In this document: one piece after another, positions 6,523 to 22,098 of the stretch
Numbering within the stretch: the first letter of the stretch is position 1
Layout of the letters: each line of letters starts with the position of its first letter
Source: a virus
IMG/VR virus record: IMGVR_UViG_3300030419_001291
Coordinates: 1 to 22,696 of that record
Reading direction: 5' to 3' (one strand)
Length of the DNA: 22,696 nucleotides
Notes under the pieces: generated by a model
Told to the model about the DNA's origin: nothing
Databases searched by the model: none
What the model saw: the letters and a program-made list of their open reading frames with translations, nothing else
Translations under genes and position numbers: made by a program

Positions 6523-6992
6523 TGGCTTGCTTCCTTAGAAAATGGGAGAGGAAGCTGTTCTGTCTTTGGGAGGTCGCAGACGATCTCCCAGCCGCCAGTC
6601 CAATCCTCCTCATCGTTCACTCGAATAGACAAGACTCTCTTGAACCGACCTGGGCTCTGGCCATCCCACCAAATAACTTTCCTTCCAGACTCCATGGCGA
6701 GTCGGAGGATGTTGGCAGTTGCTCTACCGCACCGGTTCCCCGACACAGCGAATAGATCATAGAGAAGCTCGCCTGTGGTTACATGCTTCCGATTGACCAC
6801 GCTCTGTTGCCAGGCTTCCCAATCTCCTCGGTAGTGGACATGGTGATCAGACCGCCCCGAGCGGACCCGGACATGACGACCCGGGTGGAATCTCTGATAC
6901 TTTAGCTCTAAAGCCTCTTTCAGGAGTTGAGTGTCTCTCTCAATTCCTTGGGGGGAAATAGACGCAGGGTGTGCGTAGAAAACTTTCATCAT
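6519..6992 (-). CDS. Rossmann-like hypothetical protein, possibly nucleotide-related
   Basis: The protein has 157 residues, and its ATG at 6992 overlaps the polymerase stop (ATGA). The N-terminal strand MMKVFYAHPAS leads into a helix (ERDTQLLKEAL), and the C-terminal half has a GRATANILRLAMESGRKVIWW segment. A first strand ending in a His/Pro turn, plus a helix-strand with the A-x2-SG-[RK]-x-V-I pattern, recalls the nucleoside 2-deoxyribosyltransferase/DUF4406-type Rossmann fold that phages often encode. The catalytic residues of that family are not clearly visible, so enzymatic activity is unproven. Position directly after the DNA polymerase would suit a role in nucleotide supply. Confidence 0.5.
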   Translation of the reverse strand: MMKVFYAHPASISPQGIERDTQLLKEALELKYQRFHPGRHVRVRSGRSDHHVHYRGDWEAWQQSVVNRKHVTTGELLYDLFAVSGNRCGRATANILRLAMESGRKVIWWDGQSPGRFKRVLSIRVNDEEDWTGGWEIVCDLPKTEQLPLPFSKEASQ

Positions 6993-9529
6993 ACCTCCAG
7001 CCAGGACATGCCGATGTCTGCTTCGGCGGTGTAGACAAGCCGTGCCCCTTCCCGCCTCTTGCGGGTCATGGCAGCAGCTAGGACTTTGGCCACTTCTTCG
7101 CCCTGTTCTTCGGGCACCTCAAACATGAGGGAGTCGTGGCACTGATTGACCAACCCAGTGCGGGCGTCAAAATTGAAAGAGAGGGCATCCTGACATCGGG
7201 ACACATCTATGTCTGTGTTGGAGGTGGTCCCCCAGCCAGGAATACCCAAAACTAATTCGAGCATAGCTTCGTGAATAAGTGAAGCTCCCCCCGCTTGGAT
7301 CGGGTGGTTTACTAGCTCATTGATCTTCTCTTCATCTCGGAAGTACCGGCGCCGTCCCCACAGAGAGTCAGCTATGAAGCCCTCTCTCCGGTACCTGTTC
7401 CGGATCCGGTCCCACCATTTCGGGATCTCCGGGTCGGCCTTCTTGAGGCCATTAACGACATCTCGGATGTCTCTATGCGAGAGATGGGCATAAATAAGCT
7501 TGCCCTCTTCGTCTTCGACGCTGATGACTTGCTCGTGGATAGTTGGGATGCTGGCTGCATACTGCCAAGCGTATCGGACATTCTTGGTAACGCCGCGCGT
7601 AGCTTTGAAAGTTCCGCCTCCCTTCTTCGTTCTCTCCTCAGGCGCGCCATCGAGCGTCCATATACCTTTGCCATACACGATCTCCATCGTCTCGTTGTGG
7701 GGGTCCAACCCCGAATTAATGATCTCAATGAGACGATCTGCCTCAGCTTCCTCAGCGATGTATCTAAGCTCCAACTGGTCCGCATCTGCTCCAACAAACA
7801 CATGCCCCGGCTCGGGCACGAAGATATCACGCAGGAAATAAGGGATATTCTGGGCATTGGGCGAACTTGAGGAGTACCGTCCAGTAGCTGGGAGCCTGTT
7901 GTAGGAAGGATGTACTCGCCCATCTGCAAGTACAAGCTCCCCGCTCTCCAGCGGTCGGATGTAAGTACTCAAGAGCTTGGTGTAGCGTCTAACCATTCGA
8001 ACAGCTTGGACGAACACCCTCTTCTCCTCATCTACGTCATACGTTGTAAGGATCTTACGTAGAGTGTCGTCATCAGTACTGGGGTCGCCTGTCTTCTCGT
8101 TGTATTTGACGGGTGGGAGCTTCCAATCATCGAAGATGAGGCGACGAAGCTGATGGGTAGAGTTGGGATTGAAGCCTTCGGGGCCCAGGTTCTCTGTTTG
8201 GGCTCGGTTCTCGCTTAATGCTCTTTGGAAAGCATGCTTGTGCTCTTGGAGCCTCTCCTGGTCTACGAACATGCCCAATCGCTGCATGCCTACGCCAACC
8301 CACTGGAGATGGTGCTCTCGGCTAATCAAATCCCACTGCCTGTGTGCCCGAACTTCTTGGGCAAGAGGCTTGGAGACTGCTGCGGTTACCGCACAGTCCT
8401 TTGCGCAGTACGTATGGAGTTCCTCATCAGTTCGAGCGTCAACTGCGGTGTGGTCGGACTTCCAAGCTTCTGTGAAGTCAGAATAGTAGCTTGTCACGAA
8501 CCCGAGATTGTGGGGCATCTCGTTATCAGCGAGGAGATGCAATAGAAGAGTGTCTACTGCAAGCTTAGGACTAATCCCAAAGAACTCCTCACATACCAGG
8601 CGGTCATACTGGCCGGCGTTATGGCCCATCAAAGGGAAGGGGGGATCAGAGAGGTACTTGGTAACGATATCCTTAACAGCAGCCTCCTCCCTTGGGCTGA
8701 AGAAGCGCGTCTCCCTGTCGATGCTTAGGAAAGGGACAATCATACTAAAATGGGTGTTAGCGAAGCCGATGCACCGAAGACGAGCATCCAAGGGATTCTT
8801 AGCGTCAGTCTCAACGTCGTAGGCAACAGGTTCACCCATGTCAGTCAGCTTCTTGAAGCCATCGACTACTCCCTGGACTGTCGTCGGGAAAAAGAACTCT
8901 GGGTCTTTCCAGGTAAGCTCGCCATCAAAGAACCGGATGGCCTTGGCGAGGTCTCGACGAAACACAGGCTGCCACTTTGGAGACCTAAGAACAAACGAGG
9001 GGTGCAGCGTGTAAGCCACCTTCACCTTCCCCCAGGGCATATCGATCTCTTCGCACGCTCCCCGCATTGCAAGGATTGAGGCATTGCCACCTCGGATCCC
9101 GCGTGCGGCTTCTGAGCCCAGACAAATGATCTTGTCAAAGCCTTCGAGGTCTATCATCAGCCTCCCACGGCACGCCTCTGCGGGGGAAAGGAGAAGCTCT
9201 TTCTCTTCCTTCTTACGGCGTTTGTTGGAGCGAGAGTGCTTTACCATAAAAGTGTCGAGACGGTTTGCTGGGGGGCGGCAGGCGATAGCATTGTTGATCT
9301 GAAAATCAGTACGGGGGAGGCCTATAGAATCCAACGCAGCCTGTAGTTCTCGGCCAGCCGGGCCGACAAATGGGCGACCCTCCGAGACCTCATGGGTTCC
9401 CGGAAACTCTCCAACAATTGCGATCCTATCGGAGCCGTGCGTCTCTACGAGCACGGGCATACACTCATCCGCCTTCCTGAGGTGCACCCCCAGCGAACAT
9501 GAGTCGCACTTTGCCCCTGAGATCTTCAT
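6989..9529 (-). CDS. Uracil-DNA glycosylase/family-A DNA polymerase fusion
   Basis: Start is the ATG at 9529 with AAGGAGGG upstream; 846 residues. Residues 1-200 match family-4-type uracil-DNA glycosylase: Cys8, Cys11, Cys84 and Cys120 as probable Fe-S ligands, GEFPGTHEVSEGRPFVG (40-56), NAIACRPPANR and LHPS (175-178). Residues 235-390 are a DnaQ-like 3'-5' exonuclease: Asp238/Glu240, Asn304/Asp309, Tyr374/Asp378. The polymerase domain follows: TGRYSSSSPNAQNIP, motif A with Asp582 (GADADQLELR), motif B R645-x3-K649-x3-Y653-x3-Y657, motif C HDS (798-800). It is probably the replicative polymerase of the phage. Unusual points are Tyr653 at the Phe762 position of E. coli Pol I and Ser800 where a Glu normally follows the catalytic Asp. 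A related UDG-like/PolA arrangement is known in SPO1-type phages. Confidence 0.93.
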   Translation of the reverse strand: MKISGAKCDSCSLGVHLRKADECMPVLVETHGSDRIAIVGEFPGTHEVSEGRPFVGPAGRELQAALDSIGLPRTDFQINNAIACRPPANRLDTFMVKHSRSNKRRKKEEKELLLSPAEACRGRLMIDLEGFDKIICLGSEAARGIRGGNASILAMRGACEEIDMPWGKVKVAYTLHPSFVLRSPKWQPVFRRDLAKAIRFFDGELTWKDPEFFFPTTVQGVVDGFKKLTDMGEPVAYDVETDAKNPLDARLRCIGFANTHFSMIVPFLSIDRETRFFSPREEAAVKDIVTKYLSDPPFPLMGHNAGQYDRLVCEEFFGISPKLAVDTLLLHLLADNEMPHNLGFVTSYYSDFTEAWKSDHTAVDARTDEELHTYCAKDCAVTAAVSKPLAQEVRAHRQWDLISREHHLQWVGVGMQRLGMFVDQERLQEHKHAFQRALSENRAQTENLGPEGFNPNSTHQLRRLIFDDWKLPPVKYNEKTGDPSTDDDTLRKILTTYDVDEEKRVFVQAVRMVRRYTKLLSTYIRPLESGELVLADGRVHPSYNRLPATGRYSSSSPNAQNIPYFLRDIFVPEPGHVFVGADADQLELRYIAEEAEADRLIEIINSGLDPHNETMEIVYGKGIWTLDGAPEERTKKGGGTFKATRGVTKNVRYAWQYAASIPTIHEQVISVEDEEGKLIYAHLSHRDIRDVVNGLKKADPEIPKWWDRIRNRYRREGFIADSLWGRRRYFRDEEKINELVNHPIQAGGASLIHEAMLELVLGIPGWGTTSNTDIDVSRCQDALSFNFDARTGLVNQCHDSLMFEVPEEQGEEVAKVLAAAMTRKRREGARLVYTAEADIGMSWLEV

Positions 9530-10164: not shown

Positions 10165-11048
10165 TACCAGTTCTCCTGTTCATCGATGAACATGCGGTCG
10201 AGGATATTCTCTCCCGCGTTTTTGATTACCGCTCGGTGCAGAGAATCCTGCAAAGCCCAGCGAACGTGCCGGAGATCGTGTTGATCCCGGATCTTTGTCC
10301 CAACCTTTCGGAGAGTCTCTCTCCAGTTCTCAAGGCCCTCTGAAAGGACAAGAGCACTCGTCTTGTCTACGAGAGGTTCCATCCACTCCAACTCTTTGGG
10401 TCGGGGCAACTTGTACCCAGCGGCACGAAGAGCTTCACCCAAATTCATAGGAGCGGGGTCGGGGAAAATGTCGAGCCGGTCACCACTGATGTACTCAGGG
10501 TTGGGGCCAGTTCTAAGAACGTACTTCCATGGGGCCGCAGTCTCCTCATACTCAACACGAGCGACGATGTCGGCAAAGGCTGAGAATTGTTCTGGAAGCT
10601 GACCAGGCAGCTTGGGCCCTCCACGAACGTACTTCCCAGAAGAAGTCTTTGGCGGAGACTGGTGGCAGTTAAAGATAACGTGGGTGCCATTGGAAGTTGC
10701 GTACCGCGCAGCGTCTCGCATGAACAAGACCTGATGGCGGAGCTTCCTCCACATCTCACCGAACGTGTGGTTCTTCTCAAGCTCGGTAACGGTAACCTCC
10801 GTCAACAAAGAAAGATCATCGACGACGATGGTGGGCACCTTCCCCGCAGCCTTGGTCACTATGTCCCCTGCGTGCTGCACATTCTGGGCAGCCTGTACCC
10901 GAACCTTCTCCAACCCAAGATAGTTCTTAAGTGGGAGTAGTCCGCCAGTCTGGGCAATAAAGAGTCCCCCGGCTCCGGCAGCTCCGGTAGCTGTACTCTT
11001 CCCCGTCTTGGATGGGCCATAGATTACTGCGAAGATACCGTCGCTCAT
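10164..11048 (-). CDS. Sak4-like RecA-fold ATPase (recombinase)
   Basis: The protein has 294 residues; its ATG at 11048 overlaps the HNH gene stop (ATGA). The N-terminus has Walker A GPSKTGKST (about 11-19). A Walker B-like strand, TIVVDDLSLL, lies near residue 75, and a third strand, THVIFNCHQ, occupies the RecA motif-3 position. This is the layout of the Sak4/AAA_24 group of phage RecA-like ATPases, which act in single-strand annealing or strand exchange and usually sit beside an SSB. The last third (about 200-294) is helical and less conserved. Context supports the call: SSB downstream, a RecB-like nuclease and HNH upstream. Confidence 0.82.
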   Translation of the reverse strand: MSDGIFAVIYGPSKTGKSTATGAAGAGGLFIAQTGGLLPLKNYLGLEKVRVQAAQNVQHAGDIVTKAAGKVPTIVVDDLSLLTEVTVTELEKNHTFGEMWRKLRHQVLFMRDAARYATSNGTHVIFNCHQSPPKTSSGKYVRGGPKLPGQLPEQFSAFADIVARVEYEETAAPWKYVLRTGPNPEYISGDRLDIFPDPAPMNLGEALRAAGYKLPRPKELEWMEPLVDKTSALVLSEGLENWRETLRKVGTKIRDQHDLRHVRWALQDSLHRAVIKNAGENILDRMFIDEQENW

Positions 11049-17420: not shown

Positions 17421-17449
17421 AAAAAAAAGCCCCGACCGAAGTCGGGGCT
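17421..17449 (-). terminator. Intrinsic terminator of the MoxR-VWA operon
   Basis: On the minus strand AGCCCCGAC (17449-17441), a TTCG tetraloop and GTCGGGGCT (17436-17428) form a perfect nine-base stem, followed by a run of eight T. It lies 25 bases beyond the stop codon of the gene at 17475-18332. The UUCG loop, GC-rich stem and U-run make it a textbook Rho-independent terminator. Confidence 0.93.
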
Positions 17450-17474: not shown

Positions 17475-18332
17475 CTACACGCCCCAACCCTGGAAGAGAG
17501 TAATGGAAACCGCAGACTCGACACGCTCCAAAGATTCGTCGAGAGATTGCAATCCAACCTTAAACATCTTTTGATATCCAGTTACACGCTTCCGCAGCTT
17601 CTCACATCGGGCCTGCTTTGTTTCCAGAGCTTTCTTCCCAAGGTCATCGGACATAATGGACTCTTCCATAGCCGCGAGTTCCTTATTTAGTTCTCTAGAA
17701 AGTCCAGAGATGATTGCCTGCTTTGTCCTATCGTCAACGGCAGTTCGCAATGAGTAGATAATGTTGGAGCTATCTCCAGAGCATCCCTCAATTGCTTTAG
17801 CAGCAGCATCCCACCTTGAGAGCGCTTGTTCTGGTAGCCAGTAAAGTCCACCGGTAGGCCTAAGACTAATCCCATGGAAGTGGTCCACGAGCCTAACGAT
17901 AGAAATCCCAAGCTTGTGGGAAGAGCACCGGTCTAGCTCTAGAAAATACTGATGAAGAATCTTTGTTTCCTCAGCAGGATTAATCACCTCACCGGTAGCA
18001 GGGTCCCTAAAGATTGGCTGCTGTGCACCATCGGGCAGAACAGCATCAAAATCAACGCTGTGGTCTAGGCTCTTTCCTTGAGCATCTTTTGTCTCGGTGA
18101 CAACAGCATACCCACGCTCACCAGGCGGAAGCGGTCGAACAAGTCTCCGCCTTGAACCGCACACCTTTTGGAGAGCAATCTTTAGGGATGCTGTGTTTGA
18201 GTTCTTATCAGGCGCGAACCTAAGAAGTCCCTGAGATTCAAACTCAGCTTTTAGAGCTACAGCATCCGTCTTGTTTCCGAGAGTCCAGTAGACGACTTTG
18301 CCGCGAAGATCGATTGTGTTTTGAATAGACAT
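17475..18332 (-). CDS. Unrecognised 285-residue protein, last gene of the MoxR-VWA operon
   Basis: The start is the ATG at 18332, with AACAGGA upstream; the frame runs on to 18440 inside the neighbouring gene. The N-terminal 140 residues are mostly beta, with DLRGKVVYWTLGNKTDAVAL and a basic patch (GSRRRLVRPLPPGERGY). A central segment (VRLVDHFHGISLRPTGGLYW, then LPEQALSRWDAAAKAI) is the most family-like part. The last 90 residues are helical and probably coiled coil (NKELAAMEESIMSDDLGKKA and beyond). I cannot assign a family with confidence; it resembles phage proteins of the DUF6744 type only in general layout. It lies 25 bases from the VWA gene and just before the terminator, so it may be a substrate, adaptor or structural partner of the ATPase-VWA pair. 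Confidence 0.65.
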   Translation of the reverse strand: MSIQNTIDLRGKVVYWTLGNKTDAVALKAEFESQGLLRFAPDKNSNTASLKIALQKVCGSRRRLVRPLPPGERGYAVVTETKDAQGKSLDHSVDFDAVLPDGAQQPIFRDPATGEVINPAEETKILHQYFLELDRCSSHKLGISIVRLVDHFHGISLRPTGGLYWLPEQALSRWDAAAKAIEGCSGDSSNIIYSLRTAVDDRTKQAIISGLSRELNKELAAMEESIMSDDLGKKALETKQARCEKLRKRVTGYQKMFKVGLQSLDESLERVESAVSITLFQGWGV

Positions 18333-18352
18333 TTGTTTTTTCCTGTTGAAAA
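18330..18352 (-). promoter_or_regulatory. Leader repeat with ribosome binding site, copy 1
   Basis: The bases before and at the start codon (TCAACAGGA, then an A-rich spacer, then AAATGTC on the minus strand) are almost identical to those at 22037-22059 before the MoxR gene. AGGA is the ribosome binding site. Sharing over about 20 bases suggests common translational control or a copied gene start. Confidence 0.45.
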
Positions 18353-18357
18353 GAAGT

Positions 18358-19563
18358 TTAGTTTGAGGGGATATCGATTGTCTTAGCCCAAGCCGGAACT
18401 CTTTCCGGTTGGACTTTCCAGCGACCCACGAGGGCCACAATAACTTTCATCCCAACCGGCGGAGCCGCTGGCCAGGGTGTATCTCCATCTGTAAAACAGA
18501 CGAGAATATCCGGACGGGGACGAAGCTTACCGATAGCCTCGAAACCCGTGCGCAAGTCCGTTCCGCCACGTCCACGGAATTCAACCTTTCTAATATCTGA
18601 AACTGGTTTCAGAGAATGAACCTTCGTGTCCACTACGCAAACCTTACCGGTAGAACCGGCAGAAGTTCTAAGACACTCGCGAGCTTCTGGAAGAACCTTT
18701 TGGAGGTCGGCATCTCCCATACTTCCAGAGGTGTCAATCATTAGGGCAATCTCAGGCACTGGAGTAACTCCGCCTGGATATATGACCGACCCACCGGGCT
18801 GAAAGCGTGAGAGTTTTCCGTAGGAATAATCTCCCTGACCTTTCACCCACTCGGCAGCATTCCTAGCGTGAGCCCTAAGTTTTGATTGCCAGCTAATTGT
18901 TGGAGGTTCCAGGACATCTTTTGACCATGCCACAAGATTCCCGGGTACATCCCCGCAACCTTTCTTTGCGGCCTCAATTACAGCTTCCGCAACCTGGCGT
19001 CCCACAACCTCAAGGTCAGTATCGTCCATACCTGGACCACCATCTTTTGGTTCTGGAAGTTCATAGTCTTTGGGCTGCCCATCAGCACCGGAACCACATT
19101 CCCCGTTACCGACACCCGGATCACCTCCTGGTCCACGACGACGCTCGGGTTTTTCTTTCTTCCAAAGAGCGGCATACTCCTCGAAAGTAAGGTTTGCCGG
19201 GAGTCCGAAGTCTTCCGGATAAATGCATCCCTTGGGCAGAAACGCGCGCATCTTTCGACTATCGTTAATCTCAATGTCCCCGATAATGTTTAGGGTCATT
19301 GGGTCTAGGCCTAAACTTTTCCCACGTCGAAAGTGCATCCGAAGGACGTGTTGCATCTCATGGACCAAAACACCAACTCTTTCTTCTACAGTCAGTTTCT
19401 TCCAGTAATCGACGTTCACATAAACCCGGCCATTTTTATCGACGGCTAGGGTTGGAACTTCATCACATACAAAGAACTGAAGCTTTGAGAGGATGTGGGA
19501 AAAGAAAGGAAACTCGTACATCGCACGAAACCTTTCTACTTGCATGTCTCTGAACCTATCCAT
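18358..19563 (-). CDS. Metallopeptidase-like/VWA domain protein (DUF2201-like)
   Basis: The start is the ATG at 19563 with GGAGG seven bases upstream (401 residues); the frame also has in-frame starts at 19575 and 19626. Near the N-terminus is a zinc-peptidase signature, VLVHEMQHVLRMH (His68, Glu69, His72), followed by NIIGDIEIN, the second conserved element of the DUF2201 family. A Gly/Pro/Asp-rich linker (about 139-180) separates it from a von Willebrand A domain with the MIDAS motif IDTSGSM (Asp277, Ser279, Ser281), GRGGTDLRTG and CFTDGD. Bacterial members of this family are encoded with MoxR ATPases, as here. It would bind metal-dependent ligands and present them to the ATPase. Whether the peptidase site is active is unknown. 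Confidence 0.85.
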   Translation of the reverse strand: MDRFRDMQVERFRAMYEFPFFSHILSKLQFFVCDEVPTLAVDKNGRVYVNVDYWKKLTVEERVGVLVHEMQHVLRMHFRRGKSLGLDPMTLNIIGDIEINDSRKMRAFLPKGCIYPEDFGLPANLTFEEYAALWKKEKPERRRGPGGDPGVGNGECGSGADGQPKDYELPEPKDGGPGMDDTDLEVVGRQVAEAVIEAAKKGCGDVPGNLVAWSKDVLEPPTISWQSKLRAHARNAAEWVKGQGDYSYGKLSRFQPGGSVIYPGGVTPVPEIALMIDTSGSMGDADLQKVLPEARECLRTSAGSTGKVCVVDTKVHSLKPVSDIRKVEFRGRGGTDLRTGFEAIGKLRPRPDILVCFTDGDTPWPAAPPVGMKVIVALVGRWKVQPERVPAWAKTIDIPSN

Positions 19564-20521
19564 TGTTGCCTCCATAGAATCGGGTAATTGTCCAACCGAG
19601 TCTCTCGGTTTTTTGGGCGATAGCAAACCTCCAAGGCCTACGTTTACAGGTTGGAGATGGAGCCAGAAGAACTATCTTTTCTTCCAGGTCCGAAACGAAA
19701 GAACGGTCGTCGTCAAGAACGTCAATCACCAAAGGTTTGCCACTGAAGTACATACCAATTTCAGTAAGTACCGGAGCTTCGTGGAGACCTAAGGAACGGA
19801 CTCGCTTAAACCAGCCGAAGTCTTTCACAGCTTCCTCTGGTATTCTCCAGCCCTTAGGGAAGTTCCAGTAGTCTTTCCAGTCGTGGTTCGAGTCTCCGAA
19901 GTAATCCCGGATAATCTTTTCCCGATAGACATGGACTCTCTGCTTTAGGTCCTGGTAATGAGGGCTCCGATAGAAGTTCCCAGACCGGTCCCAAGTATCG
20001 TTGGAATAGTTCCGTCGAGCATCATGGATAGGAGCACATCGGTACTTTTCTCCGTAAGAACTATGGTAGTTCTGGCGACGTTCGAGCCAATTCAAAGTCG
20101 GGTGGAACTTAGCGGGGATAATTTTCTTTATGTCCGCCATGTCGTAATAGTCGTTTGGATTCATCACAGTGTTCCAGGCTTCCAATACCTCCAAACATCT
20201 AGTCTTTTCGTCTCCGAAAAACTTCATTGCCTGAAGAGCCTCGACACCTTCGGTGTGGTCGTGAAGAGTCATCTTCCCGTCCAAACCTAGAGTTACTTTG
20301 TGGTATCTCCCACAACATCTGATTTGAGCCGTGACCGTCCTAGGTAGTTTCTTGTCCTCCCGAAACTTTCTCTGGATAACGAACCCTCCGTTACCTTTCT
20401 TAGGAAAGATGGTAGGCCTGAAAGCTCCCGAACGTAGAACGTCAGGAACAATTCCAGCATGGTATCCGTTGTGGTCTGTGAGGAACTTAAACAAGTGTAG
20501 ATATTTCTTATCGGCGTTCAT
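19556..20521 (-). CDS. Unrecognised 321-residue protein in the MoxR-VWA operon
   Basis: The start (ATG at 20521) overlaps the zinc-ribbon gene's stop (ATGA), and the end overlaps the VWA gene by eight bases. It is rich in Tyr, Trp, His, Arg and Lys, with no membrane segment or signal peptide. Visible pieces are an IRCCGRYHKVTLGLDGKMTL segment (Cys-Cys near a His), a middle with many aromatic-Asn/Arg pairs (SHYQDLKQRVHVYREKIIRD region), and a C-terminal alpha/beta stretch (KPLVIDVLDDDRSFVSDLEE, KIVLLAPSP). I do not recognise a family. Being placed between the ATPase and the VWA protein, it may be a client or adaptor of that pair. Confidence 0.65.
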   Translation of the reverse strand: MNADKKYLHLFKFLTDHNGYHAGIVPDVLRSGAFRPTIFPKKGNGGFVIQRKFREDKKLPRTVTAQIRCCGRYHKVTLGLDGKMTLHDHTEGVEALQAMKFFGDEKTRCLEVLEAWNTVMNPNDYYDMADIKKIIPAKFHPTLNWLERRQNYHSSYGEKYRCAPIHDARRNYSNDTWDRSGNFYRSPHYQDLKQRVHVYREKIIRDYFGDSNHDWKDYWNFPKGWRIPEEAVKDFGWFKRVRSLGLHEAPVLTEIGMYFSGKPLVIDVLDDDRSFVSDLEEKIVLLAPSPTCKRRPWRFAIAQKTERLGWTITRFYGGNNG

Positions 20522-20676
20522 TGCGCACTCCCGTCTTCTGATTCATCCAGCACAGATTCTTCCCCATGCTGGCGGTAAAAAAGTTCTTCTTGATAGCAGC
20601 CACAACAGACAAGTTCTCCATCAATTAGATAGCCCTCATCTTCGTGAGCAATTCCTGTACAAAGATTGCACTTCAT
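20518..20676 (-). CDS. Zinc-ribbon-like miniprotein, 52 aa
   Basis: A 52-residue gene starting at the ATG at 20676, behind GGAGGTG and overlapping the upstream stop (ATGA). The frame is open far beyond, but the upstream part overlaps the membrane-protein gene. MKCNLC and LVCCGC give two CxxC pairs about 18 residues apart, the spacing of a small zinc ribbon, around an acidic strand (EDEGYLIDGE). The tail is acidic and serine-rich. It is probably a metal-binding adaptor. Its short length and central place in the MoxR-VWA operon make it easy to miss; coupling on both sides supports it as a real gene. Confidence 0.65.
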   Translation of the reverse strand: MKCNLCTGIAHEDEGYLIDGELVCCGCYQEELFYRQHGEESVLDESEDGSAQ

Positions 20677-20903
20677 CTCGCACCTCCAGCAATCCACTGC
20701 TGTGTATAGAATTTGTTGGTGAAACCGAGGGAGAGGAATGCCCACCCAATGTTCCACCCATAGAAAAGAAAGTCCGGCATCATACAAAGCCAGACATGAT
20801 GTGGGTCTACAAAATGGTTGACCACCACCACGGCAATTGTCGGAGCCATGGCGAGGGCAAGATATGTAAACGCGAATAAGGTAGCTCTTTGAATTGTACT
20901 CAC
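20673..20903 (-). CDS. Two-helix membrane protein, 76 aa
   Basis: It starts at a GTG (20903) that overlaps the MoxR gene's stop (GTGA); no other start fits as well. Two hydrophobic stretches are present: about 8-27 (TLFAFTYLALAMAPTIAVVV) and about 40-61 (CMMPDFLFYGWNIGWAFLSL). They are joined by a His-rich loop (NHFVDPHHVW). The N- and C-termini are short and basic (QWIAGGAR at the end). It is probably an inner-membrane protein with both ends in the cytoplasm. Being inserted between the ATPase and the rest of the operon, it could anchor the complex at the membrane. No family is recognised. Confidence 0.6.
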   Translation of the reverse strand: MSTIQRATLFAFTYLALAMAPTIAVVVVNHFVDPHHVWLCMMPDFLFYGWNIGWAFLSLGFTNKFYTQQWIAGGAR

Positions 20904-22039
20904 TTGACACCTCCCGAAAGGTCAACGCCAGAAGCTTGAAGCATAGGAATAAAGTGACGCGCGGCGGGTGGAATGTTCTTCGCCTTACCTCTGTTCTTTG
21001 CGAGCATCGGAGCACCCAAAGCAGCAAGGTCACTAAAGTTCTTTCCTCGACAAAAGTCTAGGAATTCCCAGCCCTTAGCCCATCGTTCTGGAGTATTGTT
21101 CTGAAGAACTGCGGACATGACTGCGTTGATAATTGCAAACACGCGGTCGTCATCTTGTGGGAAGTGCTGATGTTGTGGAGAGTTAAGCCAGACTTCAGGG
21201 TCTCCAAACTCTAGGTCTTTTTCCCAAGCCAAGTATTCAATGCCGGGAGTACCAACAGTTCCCTCGGCAATCATGTACATAAGTTCCTTCTGATTAGAAG
21301 CATGTGCAGCAGCACGAAGAACCCAGAAGTGGTTCCAAGTTCTACGGGTGTGCGCAGGTTTCCAAGCATCCTCACCACGGGCCAAAAGATCTTTCTCAGA
21401 GATCTCTACATGTTGAGGAAACTTCTGGAGGAATTGCCCAACCATGTTTGCGGAAGCAACGATGGTATTTTCCCAGCCCCTTGGAAGCTTCTTTACTTGA
21501 GGGGAATCCCAGCCTTGCATGACCTGGCGAATCCAGTCCATCTTATCGGGCTCCCAATTGATTTGAAGGATCCGGGTAGCGAATGGATGGGAGATAGTTC
21601 CGCCAGTTGTAGCAATGTTTGGCGGATTCATAGCCATACACATCGCCGCACCTTTGATGGAAGTATCTCCAACAGTTCCATCAGTTAGCAAACCGTGCAT
21701 TGCTGCTTGGGTCATTCGTGTACCATCGGAAGCCTCATCGAAAAAGACGATGCAATTCTTAGGGCCCAACTTGTTTACCTGAACGGCCCAATCCGGAGCA
21801 TAGAATCTCATGGAGCCACGCTCGGTATCTACGTAGGGATAACCATTGAATTCTGCCGGATCGTGGCGAGGCACTGCCACATGGACATAGTTCTTTTCTA
21901 GTTGCTTCGCGGCAAGTTCTACACCGCCACGATTCTTACCAGTTCCAGCACGGCCAACCATACAAACGGGCGGAGCTTCTGGAGAATCTATTTGTGCCTG
22001 GAGGGCAAGCGAGAGGGTTTGAAAGTGAATGTTAGACAT
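20900..22039 (-). CDS. MoxR-family AAA+ ATPase with unusual Walker A (GKN)
   Basis: This 379-residue protein is the first gene of the operon; its ATG at 22039 is preceded by AACAGGAAA. Walker A reads GRAGTGKN (29-36), with Asn36 replacing the usual Thr or Ser after the Lys; Walker B is CIVFFDEAS (about 96-103, Asp101 and Glu102). TQAAMHGLLTDGTVGDTSI, the MAMNPPNIA sensor-1-like strand and the PFATRILQI arginine-finger region follow in the usual MoxR order. MoxR ATPases work as hexameric chaperones that remodel proteins together with a VWA partner, and one is encoded four genes downstream. The C-terminal third is helical and less typical. The family call is strong; whether it hydrolyses ATP with this Walker A is open. 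Confidence 0.88.
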   Translation of the reverse strand: MSNIHFQTLSLALQAQIDSPEAPPVCMVGRAGTGKNRGGVELAAKQLEKNYVHVAVPRHDPAEFNGYPYVDTERGSMRFYAPDWAVQVNKLGPKNCIVFFDEASDGTRMTQAAMHGLLTDGTVGDTSIKGAAMCMAMNPPNIATTGGTISHPFATRILQINWEPDKMDWIRQVMQGWDSPQVKKLPRGWENTIVASANMVGQFLQKFPQHVEISEKDLLARGEDAWKPAHTRRTWNHFWVLRAAAHASNQKELMYMIAEGTVGTPGIEYLAWEKDLEFGDPEVWLNSPQHQHFPQDDDRVFAIINAVMSAVLQNNTPERWAKGWEFLDFCRGKNFSDLAALGAPMLAKNRGKAKNIPPAARHFIPMLQASGVDLSGGVK

Positions 22040-22059
22040 TTTGTTGTTTCCTGTTGAGT
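22037..22059 (-). promoter_or_regulatory. Leader repeat with ribosome binding site, copy 2
   Basis: The MoxR start region (TCAACAGGA, an A-rich spacer, AAATGTC) nearly repeats that at 18330-18352. The differences are a single substitution and an extra base in the spacer. The nuclease gene at 12140 also has TTCAACAGGAG before its start, so this may be a favoured ribosome-binding leader of this phage. Confidence 0.45.
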
Positions 22060-22098
22060 GGAATTTTGTGGCGAAATTGCCGGGAAAATGGGGCTCTC

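Follow-up and report, generated by a model that had tools for sequence, protein, structure and literature searches.

DUF6744 proteins as neighbours of MoxR–VWA pairs on phages and plasmids: a putative protein-remodelling machine with a fast-evolving partner

Introduction

Many phages have kept a MoxR–VWA pair, that of N4 being gp24/gp25. Which proteins accompany such a pair, and for what purpose, is the question raised by the IMG/VR virus record IMGVR_UViG_3300030419_001291, a complete record of 22,696 bases analysed here over its whole length (the window) and probably a piece of a ~ 55 kb phage genome, since its relatives have that size. Six open reading frames (ORFs) on its minus strand, named A to F (22039–17475), had been described in an earlier note as one operon joining a MoxR ATPase and a protein with HExxH and metal ion-dependent adhesion site (MIDAS) motifs to partners that it could not recognise. 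All six ORFs were confirmed and are indeed closely coupled, with 4-nt overlaps at the A/B, B/C and C/D junctions, an 8-nt overlap between D and E, and a 25-nt gap between E and F. Comparison with other phages, plasmids and genomes suggests which of these genes belong together.

A four-gene block conserved in related and distant phages

The order A-D-E-F, without B and C, is conserved in two related IMG/VR phages of 54–56 kb (G001 and G002, with loci L011 and L012, respectively), with identities to the window of 71–74% for A, 65% for E, 58–59% for F and only 29–33% for D; replication genes are also common to the window and these phages, at 70–80%. A wider scan of the E clade recovered the same order in two distant phages (L112 and L144), where E is 30–33% identical and where the D genes were retrieved by a trio-only profile of the D module described below (E 7.6e-4 and 5e-4 among 12,289 ORFs). 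Gene order in related phages had been chosen beforehand as the observation that could refute the idea of a single multi-gene system. The order is conserved for A, D, E and F, so that the idea survives for these four genes and finds no support for B and C, which were set aside because they are absent from both close relatives. The core is thus four genes, not six. In the relatives, this unit opens the non-structural arm, on which primase, helicase and polymerase are also encoded, the structural module lying on the opposite strand. Its proposed separation from the replication genes holds insofar as a terminator stands between them, but not in terms of genome organization, as both belong to the same arm.

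The identification of the MoxR ATPase and of the HExxH/MIDAS protein was borne out by profile matches (phrog_1297 for the former; PF13203, PF09967 and phrog_1314 for the latter). Gene A (20900–22039, minus strand) encodes a MoxR-type AAA+ ATPase of 379 aa, matching phrog_1297 with an E-value of 7e-22, its Pfam AAA_5 match falling below the cut-off; midasin is its best solved relative in a profile search (E 1.4e-17). The Walker B acidic pair (FFDEA), the sensor-1 asparagine (N138) and the lid arginine (R233) are all aligned in A. Its Walker A motif (21932–21955, minus strand) is non-canonical, reading GRAGTGKN where active MoxR ATPases have GxxxxGK[ST], and is followed by a one-residue insertion. 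This form is kept in G001 and G002, and 49 of the 52 relatives with a readable motif have S or T at the position of the asparagine. We therefore claim the homology of A, not its activity.

Gene E (18358–19563, minus strand; start codon ATG at 19563, alternatively 19575) encodes a protein of 401 aa that combines a zincin-like DUF2201_N domain (PF13203, E 5.8e-23) with a DUF2201 VWA domain (PF09967, E 3.3e-19) and matches phrog_1314 (E 1.2e-55). Its HExxH motif (HEMQH, H68–H72; 19348–19362, minus strand) is invariant in nine phages and present in 86 of 95 relatives, and its MIDAS DxSxS motif (18721–18735, minus strand) is invariant in the same number of phages and present in all 95 relatives. 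The MIDAS is complete (DTSGS, T335, D359), all of its positions being invariant across the nine phage relatives. The families, the HExxH and MIDAS motifs and the joint encoding that characterize the phage MoxR + DUF2201 pair were all found here, and A + E is this already known pair. E matches 219 of 50,697 phage records (tblastn), every one below 60% identity. Among 46 unique viral DUF2201 loci spanning 12 kb or more, 42 have a MoxR gene.

Members of this pair carry various annotations. In EcP1, the annotation points to similarity with N4 gp24 and gp25, and N4-like roseophage genes are listed as ‘AAA’ and ‘vWFA’ of unknown function (PMC2784036). The MoxR and metallopeptidase-vWA pair was described in a comparison of jumbo phages, where virion assembly combined with peptide processing was suggested as its role (PMC7824862). 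N4 gp24/gp25 were elsewhere labelled rIIA/rIIB (PMC9525291); A and E match families other than these. In PHROG, phrog_1314 is named ‘HNH endonuclease’, a name contradicted by the Pfam domains of E and in all likelihood wrong for E-type proteins. This label is now found on many phage records.

A DUF6744 protein as neighbour of MoxR–VWA pairs

Gene F (17475–18332, minus strand) encodes a protein of 285 aa that matches DUF6744 (PF20529, 32.0 bits for a cut-off of 27), a match that also exceeds the cut-off in a DNA-level search. One of the partners left unrecognised in the earlier note is thereby assigned to a Pfam family, D, B and C remaining without a clear one.

DUF6744 is a near-constant neighbour of MoxR–VWA pairs. 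A scan of 84,980 genomes yielded 47 DUF6744 loci, archaeal ones included. Among the 27 with at least 12 kb of sequence, MoxR and VWA were both present at 25 and one partner at the remaining two, relatedness among loci being uncorrected in these counts. Each of eight whole plasmid or phage records encodes a single bpMoxR, which is always near DUF6744; the chance of such proximity in 8/8 records is ~ 1e-9, a rough figure obtained as the product of locus-to-record length fractions. DUF6744 was not found in 14 control genomes, 12 of them with bpMoxR. Seven annotated plasmid loci, from Brevibacillus, Alicyclobacillus, Streptomyces, Nocardia, Rubrobacter (two) and Pseudanabaena, and hence from Bacillota, Actinomycetota and Cyanobacteriota, have DUF6744 at most ~ 3 genes from a MoxR–VWA pair, in either order. 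For the AAA and VWA proteins of Brevibacillus, the best-scoring NCBIfam models are RavA and ViaA, both below cut-off, and the Moorella phage MTATph1 carries DUF6744 near a second and different pair (bpMoxR and a CoxE-type VWA). As DUF6744 is linked both to RavA/ViaA-like and to DUF2201 pairs, F occurs alongside two kinds of VWA protein. A neighbourhood of SNF2, dnaN and helicase genes was also noted on plasmids.

A viral scan with the window F and the Moorella sequence found nothing; a DUF6744 profile based on Bacillota and Actinomycetota succeeded. In 6 out of 10 viral DUF6744 contigs, the pair is adjacent. Conversely, DUF6744 occurs within 6 kb at 17 of the 46 unique viral DUF2201 loci. The 26 unique cases of DUF2201 with DUF6744 are divided between the orders A-E-F (13) and F-A-E (12), and 25 of them have the genes on the same strand. 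Looser arrangements were also found: on a Subdoligranulum plasmid (L025), a MoxR-type AAA gene is present, far from DUF6744, and the haloarchaeal virus HVTV-1 carries a DUF6744-like gene (HVTV1_25, E 6.8e-17) with an AAA–VWA pair 15 kb away.

The AlphaFold2 model of F, built from 48 sequences, has a mean predicted local distance difference test (pLDDT) of 94.2 and a predicted template modelling score of 0.86, and consists of an alpha/beta domain (~ 9–199) followed by three C-terminal helices (201–282). Compared with the PDB using Foldseek, this model had no match below E 0.07. The matches listed by a further structure search are all partial (Z < 10), the helical part resembling RRF and CorA and the alpha/beta part resembling the C-terminal part of EF-G, likenesses that may be common arrangements only. 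An HVTV-1 protein of a length matching HVTV1_25 was also among the fold matches. In the open-licence papers searched, we found neither the DUF6744 partnership nor a variable subunit such as D, and no paper there names DUF6744; the partnership of F with MoxR–VWA pairs thus seems to be undescribed.

A fast-evolving putative adaptor

Gene D (19556–20521, minus strand) encodes a basic protein (isoelectric point 9.4) of 321 aa, a putative adaptor occupying the same place in G001, G002, L112 and L144. D had no Pfam or NCBIfam match, nothing significant in PHROGs, PADLOC or the PDB, and nothing in phage tblastn searches. A module of the form C-x4-H ... H-x-H ... C at about residues 60–120 (20162–20344, minus strand) recurs in ORFs of DUF2201 cassettes (L002, L015, L112, L120, L121, L144 and L147), its members not all keeping the four C/H positions. 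In a control of 13,267 ORFs, the trio-only profile gave, outside the close relatives, best matches of low significance (E 0.045 and 0.057), yet both lie inside MoxR–DUF2201 cassettes.

Between G001 and G002, D is 40% identical, compared with 85% for A, 81–82% for E and 75–76% for F, and its nonsynonymous divergence (dN) reaches 0.62, against 0.10–0.19 for A, E and F. This divergence occurs despite the overlap of D with neighbouring genes, and only 3 of the 49 genes common to G001 and G002 are more divergent, all three on the strand of the structural arm. It is unevenly distributed along the protein, the N-terminal half being 54% identical and the C-terminal half 25%. Synonymous sites in D are saturated and the ratio of nonsynonymous to synonymous divergence is not estimable.

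The space between the MoxR and DUF2201 genes is variously occupied in other cassettes. In two of them (L015:5602–6959 and L121:5104–5959), the D module is found in two or more adjoining ORFs. In L014 (6738–6986), a SWIM-like ORF of the form CxC...CxH is found, a theme similar to that of E. coli yehQ beside yehL/yehP. Elsewhere, L002 harbours many small tandem genes (e.g. 1769–2265, 7189–7419 and 10229–11036) with a CxxC ... H ... H pattern and an LLxRLxK-like C-terminal end.

Local genes and expression signals

The two remaining genes are local additions. B (20673–20903, minus strand) encodes a small membrane protein of 76 aa with a GTG start and one clear hydrophobic segment (~ residues 10–28), and C (20518–20676, minus strand) encodes an acidic miniprotein of 52 aa with two CxxC motifs. 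Neither gave a clear family in Pfam or PHROG searches; B was not found between A and D, nor elsewhere, in G001 and G002, and C was not found in either phage. Both were rejected as parts of a machine on account of this absence, and the membrane linkage suggested in the earlier note finds no comparative support. A defence system was also considered and rejected: none of the window genes had a PADLOC match, and the plasmid triad matched nothing beyond AAA models, and those weakly.

The unit is closed, as stated in the earlier note, by a real intrinsic terminator (17428–17449, minus strand) made of a 9-bp stem, a 4-base loop and a T-tract. The same hairpin closes the unit in G001 and G002, where 1–3 additional small genes precede it. 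By contrast, the operon's own promoter is unproven: no sigma-70-like site was found upstream of A, such sites being no more frequent than in shuffled sequences. A conserved 16-nt element, TCCCGGCAATTTCGCC (22070–22085, minus strand), lies upstream of A and is exact in G001; no further site was found in the window, G001 or G002, allowing up to 3 mismatches. In the window, G001 and G002, a common leader, CAACAGGAAA, immediately precedes the start codon in A as well as in F, corresponding to CAACAGGAAACA before A (22045–22056, minus strand) and CAACAGGAAAAA before F (18337–18348, minus strand), each common to A and F in the three phages. A third copy of CAACAGGAAA precedes another small gene in G001 (L106:11031, ~ 30030 in G001). 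Elsewhere in the window, a DNA polymerase gene (6989–9529) seems, by eye, to encode a PolA-type enzyme to whose N-terminus a domain resembling uracil-DNA glycosylase is fused.

Discussion

We lean towards reading the products of A, D, E and F as subunits of a single AAA+ protein-remodelling machine, as suggested by sequence comparison. From homology to NorQD and midasin, we infer a complex in which A would form a MoxR-type ring on which the VWA domain of E would dock, its MIDAS metal gripping an acidic residue of the target, and in which the zincin-like domain of E may act as a protease on the target or on E. In NorQ–NorD, a finger of the VWA domain inserts into the AAA+ pore (PMC13036017), and the MIDAS is required for target activity and dispensable for NorQ binding (PMC9976466). 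F would be a standing third subunit of MoxR–VWA machines on mobile elements, and D would attach to the machine via its conserved N-terminal half and select the target via its fast-changing C-terminal half. The simplest reading of these two proteins is that both are additional adaptors, with D setting the target; these roles, and likewise the timing and the target, are inferred. The most likely job would be to remodel a complex of the host or of the phage at an early or middle stage of infection, beyond virion assembly alone.

This putative machine shares features with several known systems. The phage pair (phrog_1297/phrog_1314; N4 gp24/gp25; group 2.2 jumbo phages, PMC7824862) is homologous to A and E, with the same domains encoded together, but here D and F join the conserved block and A has a GKN Walker A. 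RavA–ViaA and NorQ–NorD likewise associate a MoxR-type AAA+ protein with a MIDAS-bearing VWA protein, the zincin domain of E being replaced in ViaA and NorD by an N-terminal part of their own. In these and other MoxR–VWA pairs, no additional subunit comparable to F or D is known to us. The MoxR-vWA ternary conflict systems (VMAP, iSTAND, beta-propeller, FtsH; PMC7159879) also combine the pair with a standing third protein, and the MoxR of the Moorella phage gives a match to the bpMoxR model. The third protein is here DUF6744, on phages and plasmids, and no effector domains were found; D and F contain no VMAP, iSTAND or beta-propeller Pfam domain of the kind that characterizes the third component of those systems. 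Midasin (Rea1/Mdn1), the closest solved relative of A, is also an AAA ring working with a MIDAS domain, but as a single giant eukaryotic polypeptide involved in ribosome assembly. Finally, P618/P892 of the Acidianus two-tailed virus (ATV) form another viral MoxR–VWA pair, made of archaeal virus proteins acting in tail development. To our knowledge, P892 has no reported zincin domain and ATV no known counterpart of F or D.

Several observations weigh against one machine of A, D, E and F acting early in infection. Without the usual Walker A serine or threonine, A may hydrolyse ATP poorly. The fast change of D could come from relaxed constraint, which is possible because its synonymous sites are saturated, and the AlphaFold2 model of D, built from three sequences, is uninterpretable (pLDDT 38.7), so that its adaptor role is drawn solely from linkage and divergence. 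Four of the 10 viral DUF6744 genes sit away from the pair: in two genomes DUF2201 lies elsewhere, and in the other two MoxR and VWA genes are found at a distance of some kilobases. In addition, 29 of the 46 DUF2201 loci lack DUF6744 within 6 kb, and F is therefore not obligatory for this VWA type. Two further points concern virions: in a 202-kb phage (G004, L101:4721–7946), the DUF2201 gene is located directly before GroES and GroEL, which fits assembly or folding, and the ATV pair is virion-linked, P618 being found in virions and P892 binding P618 (PMC4124505).

These last two points bear on an alternative in which the set would serve as a chaperone/protease for virion assembly or maturation, along the lines put forward for jumbo-phage pairs (PMC7824862, for the same pair of domains) and for ATV P618/P892. 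In S-TIM61, the neighbourhood of the pair includes an Hsp20 and a ‘virion structural protein’, which points in the same direction. The operon nevertheless opens the replication arm, on the strand opposite to the structural module, and comparable pairs sit among or by replication genes, helicase and polymerase included, in EcP1, Vibrio D505, CRP-7 and the Moorella phage. MoxR–VWA–DUF6744 triads are moreover found on mobilizable plasmids, which need no virion. This placement and these plasmid triads make early remodelling likelier than pure virion assembly, which we regard as unlikely.

Somewhat more doubtful still is an arms-race machine of counter-defence or host takeover, in which D would meet a changing host target. 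Such a role would agree with the position of the locus at the start of the non-structural arm and with the divergence of D, far above that of its overlapping neighbours and exceeded only by genes of the structural-arm strand. It is countered by the lack of any defence-related profile match or known anti-defence homologue, and by the D module not being found at the plasmid triads containing F. That D and F are ordinary neighbours, co-transcribed with a known MoxR–VWA pair of which they form no part, is very improbable, for although N4-like and many other phages have the pair without detectable D or F nearby, the linkage of F recurs in Bacillota, Actinomycetota, Cyanobacteriota and archaea with two VWA types and the A-D-E-F order is kept in distant phages.

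Conclusions

Beyond this locus, we see about an even chance that DUF6744 defines an undescribed class of three-part MoxR–VWA–DUF6744 machines, spread across phages, plasmids and archaeal elements, whose VWA protein would be swappable (RavA/ViaA-like or metallopeptidase-VWA) and to which a fast-evolving D would be added in one phage branch to set the target. The plasmid cases fall outside any explanation confined to virion assembly. With a third subunit common to phages, plasmids and archaeal elements, and a variable fourth one, the question raised by these phage pairs would become what F and D bind.

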